A model generated the notes under the pieces. The model ran no database searches, was not told the origin of the DNA, and saw nothing but the letters and a program-made list of their open reading frames with translations. The position numbers and the translations under genes were made by a program. Shown piece after piece: positions 7,641 through 36,094 of a DNA stretch of 36,094 nt; position 1 is the stretch's first letter, and every line of letters starts with the position of its first letter. The stretch spans positions 1 through 36,094 of the IMG/VR virus record IMGVR_UViG_3300008108_000164; one strand, 5' to 3'. Source of the DNA: a virus.

Positions 7641-7657
7641 ATATATTGGGGGAAATT

Positions 7658-8542
7658 ATGCGAATTTTTATTTGTGCCTTGATGCTTATTACTTCAGCTT
7701 CGTTTGCCAGTGGAGGACAAACAACACCTTATTACGCAGATCTCTCAGATCCAAACGACTTATCACCAGCCTTGATTGGCGGAAGTGTAGCAGATCCAGC
7801 TGATTGGCCAGCATCCCCTTGGGTCGGTAACTGTTCATCAACTTTAATTAGTAGCAAGGTTTTAATTACTGCCGCCCACTGTGTAAGCAACGGTGGAAGC
7901 AAGTCTTTTACTATCAATAACACGCGATATACTGCAAGTTGTACTCACAATCCTAGTTACCGCGGTAATTCAACTGCAGATTGGGCCTTATGCCTAGTTA
8001 GCCAGCCTGTAGTTGGCATTAAATTTGAATCAATCGCAACAGAGCGGGAGGCGTCTTGTGCTACAGGAGTCAAATATCTCTGGACTGGTTACGGATGCCA
8101 GCGCTGGGGCGGCAATATCGATGGCAAGTTTAGAATCGGGATGGTTTCTACTATTAAATGCCCTAGCGGAACAGATTACGATACCGTCACTAGAGGAAGT
8201 GTTGCGCTATGCTCTGGTGATTCGGGCGGTGGTGGATATGTAATGTTTCAGAATGGAGATCGTAAAGTTGTAGGTACAAATAGCCGATCAAATACCACTG
8301 ATACTAGTTATGTTTCTTCAACTTATACTGAAAAATTTCGTGATTGGGCAAAAAGTTGGGCTGAGTCTAAAAATGTATCTATTTGCGGAATTCATAGTGA
8401 TGCAGAAAGCTGCAGAGTAGTTGGGGACAATCCAAGTCCTGGTCCAAAAGATTGCGGATCAGAATTGGCATCAGCAATGACTAGCCTATCTGATCATGTA
8501 GCGTCACAAACTGCGCTAAAAGCTTGCCTAGAATCTAATTAA
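7658..8542 (+). CDS. Secreted trypsin-like serine protease (S1 family)
   Basis: The ATG at 7658 has GGGGGAA five bases upstream and starts a Sec signal (MRIFICALMLITSASFA, probable cleavage before SGGQ). An upstream TTG is less likely. The mature protein has the S1 layout: IGGSVADPADWPASPW (40-55, the new N-terminus after zymogen cleavage), LITAAHC with catalytic His74, TADWALCLV with Asp108, and CSGDSGGGGYV with Ser189. Residue Leu39 precedes the predicted activation site, so trypsin itself would not activate it. About ten cysteines suggest disulfides. A C-terminal extension of ~60 residues follows the fold (CGIHSDAESC ... PSPGPKDCGS). Together with the upstream lipoprotein it may act in the periplasm or outside, in lysis or surface proteolysis. 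Confidence 0.9.
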   Translation: MRIFICALMLITSASFASGGQTTPYYADLSDPNDLSPALIGGSVADPADWPASPWVGNCSSTLISSKVLITAAHCVSNGGSKSFTINNTRYTASCTHNPSYRGNSTADWALCLVSQPVVGIKFESIATEREASCATGVKYLWTGYGCQRWGGNIDGKFRIGMVSTIKCPSGTDYDTVTRGSVALCSGDSGGGGYVMFQNGDRKVVGTNSRSNTTDTSYVSSTYTEKFRDWAKSWAESKNVSICGIHSDAESCRVVGDNPSPGPKDCGSELASAMTSLSDHVASQTALKACLESN

Positions 8543-16879: not shown

Positions 16880-17490
16880 AATCTAAATTTAAATCGCTAG
16901 AAAATGAAATTGATTGGGATAAATCAAGAAAAATTTGTGAATCTTATGCAAAAAAAAGTGGATTTTCTTCAATTGCAGAAGACTTTGCAAGCTATGCGAT
17001 TTTAGAAGCTATAGAGAAAAAACATGATGAAATATTTGTTGAAAGAAGATTTGTCGATTTTTTACGAAAAACTTATGGTCGTTCGGGGACACCTGGCGGG
17101 GATGCTAAACAAGAAGGAGTACTCAGATCTTCAGAATTTATTGAAGACAAACATAGATCTGAATTATCAGATAGACGATGCAGTACTTCTTTTGCAGGAA
17201 AGTCTTTAAGATTTCGTGCTTTTGCTTTGTTAAAAGAAGAGGGTTTTACAGGAGAAGAATTGGCAAAAATATGGGGAAAGTCAAGCATGAGTGTCTCCAA
17301 TGTTTTTCGTAAAGAAAGACAAAAGAGGATGCCTAAAAAACAAAAGCACGTGCCCCAGTTTTCTCTTGAAGCAAAAGTTATGGAACACATCAGATATGTT
17401 TTAGAGTTGCATAAAGGTAACAAAACTCACGCTGCCCGAGATCTTGGAATCTCGCTGCGCTGCCTTCGATACAGATTGAATGGAAAGTAG
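16876..17490 (+). CDS. DNA-binding protein with sigma-like N-terminus and Fis-type C-terminus (small terminase position)
   Basis: The 204-residue protein has two DNA-binding regions. Residues ~15-75 (SYAKKSGFSSIAEDFASYAI, VDFLRKTYGR) resemble sigma-70 region 2, and LKEEGFTGEELAKIWGKSSM plus VSNVFRKER resembles a region 4-like helix-turn-helix. The C-terminus (VLELHKGNKTHAARDLGIS, LRCLRYRLNGK) matches the Fis/NtrC helix-turn-helix. It overlaps the large terminase start by 11 bases, the usual position of a small terminase subunit that recognises the packaging site. Alternatives are a late-gene activator or sigma-like factor. Which of these it does is not determined. Confidence 0.65.
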   Translation: MKSKFKSLENEIDWDKSRKICESYAKKSGFSSIAEDFASYAILEAIEKKHDEIFVERRFVDFLRKTYGRSGTPGGDAKQEGVLRSSEFIEDKHRSELSDRRCSTSFAGKSLRFRAFALLKEEGFTGEELAKIWGKSSMSVSNVFRKERQKRMPKKQKHVPQFSLEAKVMEHIRYVLELHKGNKTHAARDLGISLRCLRYRLNGK

Positions 17491-31474: not shown

Positions 31475-32992
31475 ATGGCTACTATTTCCAGCAGAAATTC
31501 AGTTTTAGGCGTAGTCACTGAAGTTACGCAAAATCTTTTAAGAGTACCTCAAACAAGTGGAGATTATGTTCCACTTCAAGATGATTTTAGTATTGAGCCA
31601 AATTATGATCAAATTGAAAACCTTGAAATCAAGGCTTCGATTGGTAGAGCAGCGTCTATTCAAGGCGGCGAAAATCCAACAGCTTCACTTTCATTCTACC
31701 TAAAAGGTTCCGGCACTGAAGGTGCTGCACCTCAATGGTCAGATATCGCAAAAAGCTTTTTTGGTACTCAAATCATCGAAGGCACTCAAAGAGTTACAGC
31801 GGCTTCATCTACTGTATCACTAATTAACGTAACAGGTGCTTTAGCAGCTGGTTTGGCGCAAGGTTACGGTGTTTTGATCAAAGACCCTGTAAATGGTTAC
31901 CGTGTTAGGGTAGTTGATTCTGTAACTACAAACGCTTTTGTACCATCATTTAACTTGCCAAATGCTCCTGGTACTTCAGTTGGTTTAGGGAAACCTGTTT
32001 ATTGGAGTCCAGCAAACGAAAATCATCCTAGCCTATCTCTTTGGTGGTATGGCGGTAATGGTGGAGCAACTCAAGCTGTTTCCGGCGCTTTAATAAATGA
32101 TTTTAGTTATACACTTACAGCAAATGATTCAGTTAATGCATCAGCTGGGTTTGACGCTCTTGGTTATTTCTTTGATCCAATTTTAATTGGTTCTAGCGAT
32201 AGATTTATTGATTTTACTGATGACACTGGTACTTTTGCGGCTGCAATTACAGCTCGTTGGTATAAAGATCCACACGAATTGGCAGAAGCACTTACAATAG
32301 CAATGAATTCATCTGGTACAGCTCAAACTCATCTTTGCCAATATCTTGATGCAAGTGGTAAATTTAAGTTTACATCTACAGGAACTCTTTTATCTCTTCT
32401 ATGGAATACAGGAGCAAATGCAGCTAATACTGTTGGTGATAAAATAGGTTTTATTGTTTCTGCAAACGATACCGGATCACCTGCAACTACTGGTTACAGT
32501 AGTGATAATGCGCAATCATATGCAGCTCCACATACACCGGTATTTGATCCTACTGCACCTATCATTGCTAAAAATCAAGAAGTAATGATTGGAAACGCTA
32601 CCGATTACGCTTGCTTTAACCCTTCAGAGGTTTCTGTTTCCTTATCTTCAGGTGTAAGAAAAGTTGAAGATATTTGTTCAGAATCTGGAAGAAGTGCAGC
32701 TATTATCAATAGCAGAGAAGCTGAAATCACTGTAACAGCGCTTTTAAATCAGTATGATGCTATCCAAATGGCTCGTTTCAGAAAAGGCGATTCAATCAGA
32801 TTCCAAACAACCATGGGTGCTAAAAATGGCGGAAACTGGGTTCCTGGAACTGTAGTTTATAGCTACGCTCCACAATCTAAAATTACTGCTATCTCTATCA
32901 CTAACGATGAAGGTCTAGTTTCACTCCAGTTGACACTACAGCCATTCGTTTCTGATACTGGAACTCCAGAGTTTTACATCGGTCAGCTTTAA
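31475..32992 (+). CDS. Major tail tube protein with inserted domain
   Basis: The 505-residue protein is longer than usual tube proteins (~200-250 residues). N-terminal part: MATISSRNSVLGVVTEVTQN, PNYDQIENLEIKASIGRAAS, SLSFYLKGSGTEGAAPQW. A middle insertion at about 243-334 (LAEALTIAMNSS ... GKFKFTSTGTLLSLLWNTG ... GDKIGFIVSANDTG) is the same module as in the distal tail protein at 590-1702. The tube core resumes with VSLSSGVRKVEDICSESGR, EAEITVTALLNQYDAIQMAR, FQTTMGAKNGGNWVPGTVVY and IGQL at the end. The strong hairpin at 33009 follows. It forms the stacked rings of the tail. Confidence 0.75.
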   Translation: MATISSRNSVLGVVTEVTQNLLRVPQTSGDYVPLQDDFSIEPNYDQIENLEIKASIGRAASIQGGENPTASLSFYLKGSGTEGAAPQWSDIAKSFFGTQIIEGTQRVTAASSTVSLINVTGALAAGLAQGYGVLIKDPVNGYRVRVVDSVTTNAFVPSFNLPNAPGTSVGLGKPVYWSPANENHPSLSLWWYGGNGGATQAVSGALINDFSYTLTANDSVNASAGFDALGYFFDPILIGSSDRFIDFTDDTGTFAAAITARWYKDPHELAEALTIAMNSSGTAQTHLCQYLDASGKFKFTSTGTLLSLLWNTGANAANTVGDKIGFIVSANDTGSPATTGYSSDNAQSYAAPHTPVFDPTAPIIAKNQEVMIGNATDYACFNPSEVSVSLSSGVRKVEDICSESGRSAAIINSREAEITVTALLNQYDAIQMARFRKGDSIRFQTTMGAKNGGNWVPGTVVYSYAPQSKITAISITNDEGLVSLQLTLQPFVSDTGTPEFYIGQL

Positions 32993-33056: not shown

Positions 33057-33419
33057 ATGAATTTTGCATGTGAGTTTGTTCCAACAATTTGTAAAGCAAG
33101 CGAAGAAGCACCGGCTAAATACAGCGGAAGTATCACGCTTAAGCCTATCTCTTACGATGATCGACTAGATTTTATGGAAGCTCAGACCGTTGCAATGTCT
33201 GGCGATGAATCTCAAAAGATGATTGCTCTCCTAGGACTCGCTAAGGATTTTTCCAGAAACCATATAAGTAAATATTTCGTATCGTCTTCTATTGTTAGAT
33301 TAGAAGACAATTACGTTTTTGATAGTTTAGAGAAGATTAAAATGGATGGTCCTGTTTCGGCTTGTCTGCCTGAGATTTCAATGGCTCTTATCTCAGGACA
33401 GTTGTCTCTGGGAAAATAG
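33057..33419 (+). CDS. Tail assembly chaperone, short form (gpG-like)
   Basis: This 120-residue protein lies between the tail tube and the tape measure, where lambda-type gpG is found. It has CEFVPTICKASEEAPAKYS, ITLKPISYDDRLDFMEAQ and a helical C-terminus (IKMDGPVSACLPEISMALIS) ending QLSLGK just before TAG. Its final codons are G GGA AAA, a classic -1 slippery heptamer, so most ribosomes stop here and a fraction continue in the -1 frame. The ratio of short to long forms is essential for tape measure loading in lambda. Confidence 0.85.
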   Translation: MNFACEFVPTICKASEEAPAKYSGSITLKPISYDDRLDFMEAQTVAMSGDESQKMIALLGLAKDFSRNHISKYFVSSSIVRLEDNYVFDSLEKIKMDGPVSACLPEISMALISGQLSLGK

Positions 33420-33661
33420 ATAGCGAAGCTGTACGCAGGGCGGCGGCGGCAGTAGTTCGCGGGGTAGATTTCTTTAATGAGTATACGCCATTTGTTATTG
33501 AGTTTCTAGAACGGAAAAAGTTAGCTGAACTAGGTTACACTTCTTCGATCAAGGAACTTAGTATTTATAAAGCTAGAATATTTTGCGAAATTGCACTTAA
33601 GTTTGAATTAATTAAATCAGAGCAAATGCAAAAGGCGGTTAAAGGTGGCAAACGACGTTAA
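33057..33661 (+). CDS. Tail assembly chaperone, frameshifted long form (gpGT-like)
   Basis: A -1 shift at G GGA AAA (33410-33416) joins the 120 codons of the short form to 81 codons in frame 2 (33416-33658, stop 33659-33661), giving about 201 residues. The downstream part reads IDSEAVRRAAAAVVRGVDFF, then EYTPFVIEFLERKKLAELGY, IYKARIFCEIALKFELIKSE and MQKAVKGGKRR. It has no start codon with a ribosome site of its own, fills the gap completely and overlaps the tape measure start. This mirrors gpG-GT in lambda: position, heptamer and lengths agree. Coordinates assume the shift. Confidence 0.85.
33410..33460 (+). promoter_or_regulatory. Programmed -1 ribosomal frameshift site with downstream hairpin
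   Basis: GGGAAAA is in the exact phase for X XXY YYZ slippage (codons GGA AAA before TAG). Six bases beyond, GCGAA (33423-33427) can pair with TTCGC (33456-33460), and inner CTG with CAG (33429-33431/33450-33452), enclosing a GC-rich loop. A closer alternative is CTG-TACG-CAG (33429-33438). Stability was not calculated. Confidence 0.75.
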
Positions 33662-36094
33662 TTTTTCAATCGGTGCCGATACCAAATCAGCCGAAAGAAG
33701 CATTGATAGCCTTACTAATAGTTTAAAGACTATTCAAAAATTTGCTGCTGCTGCCATAGCCGTATTTGCTGGTAAACAAGTTGTAGACTTCTTTAATTCA
33801 GGAATACAAGCGGCAGTTGATCAGGAGCAAGCAATGGCTTCTCTTGGTCAACAGCTTAAAGCTACTGGTGAGTTTTCAACTAAGACATTAGAGCAGTTTG
33901 CTGCTTTTGCTGATGAACTAGAAAAAACCACTCAATTCGGTGACGATTTAGTTATATCGCAACTCGCAGTCGCCAAGGCTATGGGTTTAAGCAATGAGCA
34001 ATCAAAAGATCTAGTAAAAGCAGCAACTGAATTATCGGCTGTTACGGGCGATAGTTTAGCTTCATCTGTAGAACAACTAGGTAAGACCTATGACGGCATC
34101 ACGGGAAAATCACCTGTATTGAAAGCGGCCCTTGCTGGCGTATCAAAAGAAGCACTAGCTGCTGGCGAAGGAATTAAAGCAGTACAAAAGGCGTTTGGCG
34201 GTTCAGCCGCCGCACAAATAGATACTTATGCAGGTGCTCTAAAACAAGCACAAAACGCTTACGGCAATTTTCAAGAAGCTATCGGTAAAATAATAATAGA
34301 AAACCCGACATTGATAGCAACAATAAAGGGTTTAACTGAAATATTCTCAGAACTAGAGACGTCAATTAATGACAACTCTAGCGAGATAAGTAAGTTCGTA
34401 ACCACATCCGCTCAAATATTTTTGTTCAGTCTTAATGAAATGGTAAAGGGCACAGGACTTGCCATAAAAAGCTTTCAGATACTTTCTAACGGTTTATTGG
34501 TTTTTGGTGCTGCGGCCATTAAATCGGCTGAACTTTTCCTGAAAGTTTTTGGTGGAGAAGAAAGCAAAAAGAAAGCTGAAGAGTTGGAGAAATTAGGCCT
34601 TCAGTTTGAAACATTCTTTAAAGATAGAGTTGAAGGACAAAAGAAGTTTAACGAAGGTTTTGATGAACTAGCTAAAGCAATAGAGGAAATAACTCTAAAG
34701 GCGGCAAACGCCACTGAAAAACTCTCAAAAGCAGAGCAAGAAGCAGCCGCGGCAAGAGAAAAAACTGTTCAAGAAGAGAAGAAGGCTAATGAAAAAAGAG
34801 AGGCCGCTTTAAAAAGTCTTGCTGCTTTACAAAAGAAAGTAATTGATGAAACAGCAGGCGCATTTGAAAAAATACAAATTAAAAGAGACGAAGATCTAGC
34901 TCAACTTAAAAGAATTGAAAAAGAAGCTGGCGGAGCCTCTAAAGAAACAAACGAATTAAGAGAAAGAATACTTCAGCAATATGACAAAGCATACAAAGAA
35001 GCTTTGGTGGATCTAAGAAGCGCTGAAGATAAATATCACAAAGAGTCTTTAAACGCCGCTAAGGAAGCTTCTGACAGACAGAAAAAGGAAATAGAGGACC
35101 GTCAAAAAGAAATATCTACAATTCTCCAAAATACAAATATATTTCAGCAAATTAAACTGTCATTAGACCCAAATGCTGCATCAGATCTTAAATCAGAAAT
35201 AACAAAAAATCTTGGAACTATTGCTGCAAATATTGGTGCAACTGTTGTAGCTGGCGTAGCTAATGGCGCGGCTGGTGCAAGCTCAGTAGCAGATACAGTT
35301 GCTAATTTAATTTCAAAAATACCAGTTGTCGGTGGTTTGATTTCAGAATTAGTTAAGCTTGCAGGCCAAGCACCTGAAGAAAACAAAAAGAACATCCAGG
35401 GTTTTGTTAAAGGGATACCTCAATTTTTAGAGAATGTTAACGTTAACCTTGGTGCTTTAAATGGAATTTTAACTGAAGTCATCGGACCAATTATTAAAAA
35501 AGTTATCGACGAAGTAGGTATCTTTGATCTTTTAAGTAAGCTAGGGCAAAACCTTGTTTCACTGCCAGGATTAATTAAAACTATTGCATTAGGCGTAAGA
35601 GACGGATTACGCGGATCAGGCGGCGAGTTGTCTGATGCATTTAAGAAAGGTGTAGCTGATACAAAGGCAGAAATAGGTAGATTTGCAGAAAGCGTTAGAA
35701 ATTTCTTTGGAACGTTTGCAAATCAATTAAGATCTGCATTTGACTACGTATTTAAAAATAATCCTTTGCTAAATGAACTAAAATCAATGAAGGAATTAAT
35801 TACTAGGGTTAAATTAGTAATTGAATTTATTTCTACTTTGTTTCAGTCAATTCCTGGTGCCTTTGTTCAAATAAGAGATACCATAAACGCTATTGCAGAT
35901 AAATTTAATGGCGCTTTTCAGAATCTTGGCGCTAAATTTACAGACGGTTTTTTACAGGTAAGAGATCAGATAGCAAGTTTATTTAAAGGCTTGGCTACTG
36001 CATTTAAAAATTTTCCAGGGCAGATAAGAGACGCTTTAAGCGACTTGTTTAACGGCATAAAAGATGCAATTAAAAATGCTTTTTCTGGCGATAA
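33645..36094 (+). CDS. Tape measure protein, N-terminal ~816 residues (3' end cut by window edge)
   Basis: Starts at a GTG (33645) with GGCGG about six bases upstream, inside the long chaperone form. It runs open to the window end. The N-terminal part (VNFSIGADTKSAERSIDSLT) is the usual opening, followed by KFAAAAIAVFAGKQVVDFF. Helical and hydrophobic segments follow (SISEL-type helices, IFLFSLNEMVKGTGLAIKSF, VGGLISELVKLAGQ). A long coiled coil lies in the middle (AIEEITLKAANATEKLSKAE ... REKTVQEEKKANEKREAALK). The end carries a repeat (FVQIRDTINAIADKFNGAFQ, FKNFPGQIRDALSDLFNGIK) also found at window start. The total length cannot be fixed from this window because of the cut. Confidence 0.88.
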   Translation, partial: MANDVNFSIGADTKSAERSIDSLTNSLKTIQKFAAAAIAVFAGKQVVDFFNSGIQAAVDQEQAMASLGQQLKATGEFSTKTLEQFAAFADELEKTTQFGDDLVISQLAVAKAMGLSNEQSKDLVKAATELSAVTGDSLASSVEQLGKTYDGITGKSPVLKAALAGVSKEALAAGEGIKAVQKAFGGSAAAQIDTYAGALKQAQNAYGNFQEAIGKIIIENPTLIATIKGLTEIFSELETSINDNSSEISKFVTTSAQIFLFSLNEMVKGTGLAIKSFQILSNGLLVFGAAAIKSAELFLKVFGGEESKKKAEELEKLGLQFETFFKDRVEGQKKFNEGFDELAKAIEEITLKAANATEKLSKAEQEAAAAREKTVQEEKKANEKREAALKSLAALQKKVIDETAGAFEKIQIKRDEDLAQLKRIEKEAGGASKETNELRERILQQYDKAYKEALVDLRSAEDKYHKESLNAAKEASDRQKKEIEDRQKEISTILQNTNIFQQIKLSLDPNAASDLKSEITKNLGTIAANIGATVVAGVANGAAGASSVADTVANLISKIPVVGGLISELVKLAGQAPEENKKNIQGFVKGIPQFLENVNVNLGALNGILTEVIGPIIKKVIDEVGIFDLLSKLGQNLVSLPGLIKTIALGVRDGLRGSGGELSDAFKKGVADTKAEIGRFAESVRNFFGTFANQLRSAFDYVFKNNPLLNELKSMKELITRVKLVIEFISTLFQSIPGAFVQIRDTINAIADKFNGAFQNLGAKFTDGFLQVRDQIASLFKGLATAFKNFPGQIRDALSDLFNGIKDAIKNAFSGD
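35857..36094 (+). repeat. Tape measure repeat, copy at right window edge
   Basis: This 238-base segment aligns without gaps to bases 1-238, with the first 55 bases identical and the rest about 88% similar. The codon phase agrees. Joining base 36094 directly to base 1 would break the frame, whereas overlapping the two copies keeps it. Confidence 0.85.

Follow-up and report, generated by a model that had tools for sequence, protein, structure and literature searches.

How is the stretch between gene G, a candidate tail assembly chaperone gene, and the tape measure gene downstream of it translated in this virus? The window analysed here (the whole stretch of 36,094 nt, from IMG/VR record IMGVR_UViG_3300008108_000164) belongs to a phage family that is known from environmental DNA only (metagenomes) and whose hosts are bacteria. 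Between G and the tape measure gene it carries an 81-codon frame, here called T, that lies at -1 relative to G. A preliminary description had suggested that ribosomes enter T by a programmed -1 frameshift of the lambda G/GT kind at G GGA AAA, and on the sequence evidence presented below we consider this reading to be correct with a probability of about 95%.

G is located between the major tail protein gene, which lies directly upstream, and the tape measure gene, and starts with an ATG that has a GGAG Shine-Dalgarno sequence (Table 1). The tape measure ORF runs past the end of the window, and its apparent continuation is found at positions 1-593. Positions 1-238 and 35857-36094, inside this gene, form a direct repeat with 89% identity; the contig probably represents a near-complete, circularly permuted genome with overlapping ends derived from variants, or the repeat lies within the gene and marks where the assembly broke. 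Elsewhere in the window, positions 7646-8542 encode a trypsin-like serine protease (PF00089, E=6.8e-12) with TAAHC and GDSGG motifs and a likely signal peptide, which is unusual for a tailed phage.

Table 1. Features around the G/T junction of the window, and slip sites at the equivalent place in related loci (positions refer to the window unless a locus is named).
Feature	Position	Strand	Evidence
Major tail tube protein candidate	31475..32992	+	PHROG 290 tail family, E=1.5e-6; neighbour conserved in 28 metagenomic loci
G, tail assembly chaperone candidate, 0-frame product, 120 aa	33057..33419	+	ORF; homologues at same place in 25 loci
Possible internal Shine-Dalgarno AGGA	33395..33398	+	Sequence; 11 nt upstream of heptamer
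Slippery heptamer G GGA AAA	33410..33416	+	Sequence; heptamer at equivalent place in most relatives
T, 81 codons + stop in -1 frame	33416..33661	+	Open frame; at -1 in 26/26 loci; in close pairs, dN much smaller than dS
TAG stop of G, adjoining heptamer on 3' side	33417..33419	+	Sequence
Possible stimulatory stem-loop, 6 nt past heptamer	33423..33460	+	-15.4 kcal/mol; z=+0.14
Tape measure protein	33645..36094	+	PHROG 58, E=3.2e-9; start GTG, overlaps T end
G GGA AAC in relatives	L010, L031, L033, L034, L037-L045, L047, L048		
G GGA AAG in relatives	L028		
A AAC CCG/T, C-rich second codon, in place of G GGA AAN	L002 7971-7977; L004 7949-7955; L011 2642-2648		
G GGT TTT, T TTT TTG and A AAA AAA, all in phase	L029		
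A AAC CCA and C CCA AAG	L030		
Junction without perfect XXXYYYZ	L026 ~5928; L032 ~5295; L035 ~2080; L036 ~5935		

In the 0 frame, the 3' end of G reads TTG TCT CTG GGA AAA TAG. There, G GGA AAA fits X_XXY_YYZ exactly in phase and adjoins the stop codon, as the preliminary description had stated, and it is the sole in-phase XXXYYYZ within gene G. When amino acids were kept fixed and codons were drawn from the usage of the window phage, 7.7% of the draws contained any XXXYYYZ in the G/T overlap (P=0.077) and 4% contained GGGAAAN (P=0.04). By itself, in a single genome, the heptamer is only mildly surprising and provides modest evidence. It is the conservation in relatives that raises the finding above chance, the probability of a chance GGGAAAN being about 0.01-0.1 per locus for fixed amino acids and the given codon usage.

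The -1 frame is open from position 33374 to a TAA at 33659-33661. The first and only ATG, GTG or TTG of T is the ATG at 33626, which is codon 71 and lies 11 codons before the stop, and the GTG start of the tape measure gene at 33645 falls inside T. The lack of a start that had been claimed thus holds for the first 70 codons of T, and the -1 frame does reach over the tape measure start. An open -1 frame of 50 or more codons beyond the stop is kept by 11 genes of the window, G/T alone being without a start codon near or upstream of the stop.

Because G and T evolve fast, neither led to relatives when used directly as query; the anchors that worked were the major tail protein and the beginning of the tape measure. 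The tail tube protein yielded five loci and then, through an alignment of five, 28 loci, while the tape measure start as query added L010 and L011. The junction set comprised 26 loci including the window (25 further metagenomic ones); clustering by tail-tube identity gave 21 groups at the 95% level, 15 at 80% and 11 at 60%. Tape-measure matches with 29% identity (L012-L017) were left out as too distant for a junction comparison, and the records from which L046 and L022 derive stop short of the junction region. Neither the species genome collection nor 50,697 records of cultured phages yielded a relative or any match to the tail tube family, and a search of viral contigs with the junction pattern of the window returned no second copy. 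Many metagenomic virus contigs carry the tail tube family.

Throughout the relatives' loci the order tail tube, G, T and tape measure is kept. The preliminary description had named relatives with a broken -1 frame as evidence that would speak against it; on inspection, all 26 loci had an open T in the -1 relation to G. In a single genome, one missing base would give the same picture, that is, one ordinary gene split into G and T by a sequencing or assembly indel. However, the identical -1 split was present in independent contigs from many metagenomes, which already contradicts an indel, and we give this explanation practically no weight.

The protein encoded by T aligns across loci and shows the common motifs RRAAAA..RG and RK.LA.LG[YF]T. 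Read at -1, T showed dN values of 0.03-0.24 versus dS values of 0.12-2 in close pairs, with dN/dS of about 0.07-0.27, similar to G. Most close pairs differed mainly at third positions, again much like G, the pair L040/L042 being so close that its changes are too few for judging this bias. Together, the third-position bias and a dN well below dS indicate that T is a real protein sequence in the -1 frame, and judged from these comparisons it is under purifying selection there. An alternative is a separate T gene, translated after G by re-initiation at a non-standard codon: the start of T adjoins the stop of G, and its frame contains non-standard start codons, e.g. ATA at 33416 and ATT at 33497. 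We nevertheless regard this as very unlikely, given that in the window no ATG, GTG or TTG occurs until near the end of T, that candidate starts vary in place and kind among relatives, and that an independent gene would need neither the -1 relation in 26 of 26 loci nor a kept GGGAAAC.

The evidence for a frameshift extends to the slip site, whose absence from relatives the preliminary description had likewise counted against its reading. Most relatives do share such a site, 22 of the 26 loci having an XXXYYYZ in phase, in the majority of cases G GGA AAC (Table 1), but the overlaps of L026, L032, L035 and L036 contain no perfect XXXYYYZ, with T still at -1. The overlap measures 13 nt in seven loci (L033, L034, L037, L040, L042, L044 and L048), and GGGAAAC is the sole heptamer inside it; since the -1 frame is open for just 13 nt before the G stop, a shift in these loci must take place at GGGAAAC. 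An alignment of eight loci showed GGGAAACG to be invariant, whereas adjacent third positions vary. The AAAA at the slip site of the window would also be compatible with transcriptional slippage on the A run instead of a ribosomal shift. A run of four A is too short for the polymerase to slip efficiently, however, and most relatives have only AAA followed by C, with the heptamer pattern of ribosomal slippage retained, making transcriptional slippage exceedingly improbable.

The closest relatives, L002 and L004, which belong to a group with 78-88% tail-tube identity, are without the slip site of the window, indicating a slip-site exchange even inside this group. A more far-reaching and rather doubtful idea is that the slip site was replaced several times in the family, with G GGA AAN, A AAC CCG/T and possibly G GGT TTT and C CCA AAG as versions, and with three lineages (L026, L032 and L035/L036) free of a perfect heptamer and T still at -1. 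If functional, these would rank among the less common -1 sites of bacteria, some having a C-rich second codon and others working by single-tRNA or imperfect slips. Imperfect slip sites may be GTG GGG AAG AAG in L026 and TTG GGG GAA in L032. Slip-site drift together with the lineages that have no perfect heptamer is the only aspect that a specialist may wish to test, and the loci offer, at a single position, a natural set of slip-site replacements that is suited to reporters.

Regarding possible stimulators, a downstream RNA structure is helpful for shifts of this kind without being essential, and a stem had been proposed six bases downstream of the heptamer. It does form at that place, and for a genome of 40% G+C it is stable, ranking within the top 0.8% of the 45-nt stretches sampled from position 17480 on. 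It folds no better, however, than dinucleotide-shuffled versions of its 60-nt stretch, so that composition explains its stability, the local G+C coming with the RRAAAA codons, and it is not conserved across the family. The stem is the weakest part of the frameshift claim, and both it and the adjoining TAG may stimulate slippage. L002 and L004 have a common 10-bp stem 5 nt past A AAC CCG, in which two compensatory pair changes are suggestive of real pairing, based on two sequences only. No covarying stem was detected in the GGGAAAC subgroup; a promising hairpin about 30 nt past the heptamer in this group was rejected, as it showed no compensatory changes. Internal Shine-Dalgarno sequences act at the dnaX frameshift site, and by analogy the AGGA upstream of the heptamer could, speculatively, play such a role for the slip, although it is absent from the upstream stretches of relatives.

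Taken as a programmed ribosomal frameshift, the junction would work as follows. Most ribosomes on G would halt at the TAG and yield the 120-aa putative chaperone, whereas in a minority the tRNA-Gly and tRNA-Lys on GGA AAA would slip one base back onto GGG AAA. After this tandem slip, ATA GAT AGC GAA and the following codons would be read, producing a G-T fusion of 201 aa (120 + 81 codons). We infer both the slippage itself and its rate. By analogy with lambda, G would coat the tape measure protein, the T part of the fusion would recruit tail tube subunits, and neither G nor the fusion would have to be present in the virion.

With respect to protein identity, G and T matched no named chaperone family among Pfam and PHROGs profiles, with no consistent match below E=0.001; the best value for T of three members against PHROG 11549, a family of unknown function, was E=0.0019. 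A G profile gave chance matches only against PDB sequences. Confidence was high for AlphaFold2 models built on the family alignments, with pLDDT values of 88.5 (G) and 86.3 (T). The top match of the G model in a Foldseek search of the PDB was 2OB9, the HK97 tail assembly chaperone, at E=0.2, which is below significance, and comparison with 2OB9 and YqbN (3KLU) gave Z 3.3-3.4 over 82-91 residues, with 2OB9 at 3.3, a weak predicted likeness of fold that is likewise below significance. Several viral-library matches, also below significance, bear the name of a tail assembly or tape measure chaperone, and the structure search with the T model returned nothing telling. We infer the chaperone identity of G from its position and architecture more than from its fold.

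Overall, the data well support the known lambda G/GT strategy in a so far uncultured family, which is ordinary biology and not surprising. It adds a metagenome-only phage family to the users of G/GT and supplies an annotation, a 201-aa fusion, that is overlooked when ORFs are simply called. The tail-assembly frameshift was reportedly found to be conserved among dsDNA phages by Xu, Hendrix and Duda in 2004; the window shares with those phages, and with the SEA-PHAGES annotations, an identical strategy, which the surveys detect in spite of little sequence similarity, but unlike the surveyed dsDNA phages its family is absent from the cultured-phage records searched. The likeness to lambda G/GT noted in the preliminary description is borne out by gene order, with G and T between the tail tube and tape measure genes, by a start-less T at -1, and by a GGGAAAN heptamer close to where G ends (G GGA AAG in lambda). 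In contrast to lambda (gpG and gpGT), the Z base in the window is A, the G stop follows directly after the heptamer, and no named chaperone family could be matched to G or T. The G-T frameshift is widely conserved in long-tailed phages despite low sequence similarity, with slip sites G_GGA_AAG and G_GGA_AAC reported, and the two lambda products, whose roles have been described, occur at a ratio of 30:1 (PMC5009743); tail frameshifts have been annotated in thousands of phages (PMC10885494). The haloarchaeal viruses HCTV-1, -2 and -5 have a g-t frameshift too (PMC5009743). Unlike the phage studied here they infect archaea, and the likeness noted here is one of arrangement, with HCTV-1 using G_GGA_AAC as do most of the relatives described here.
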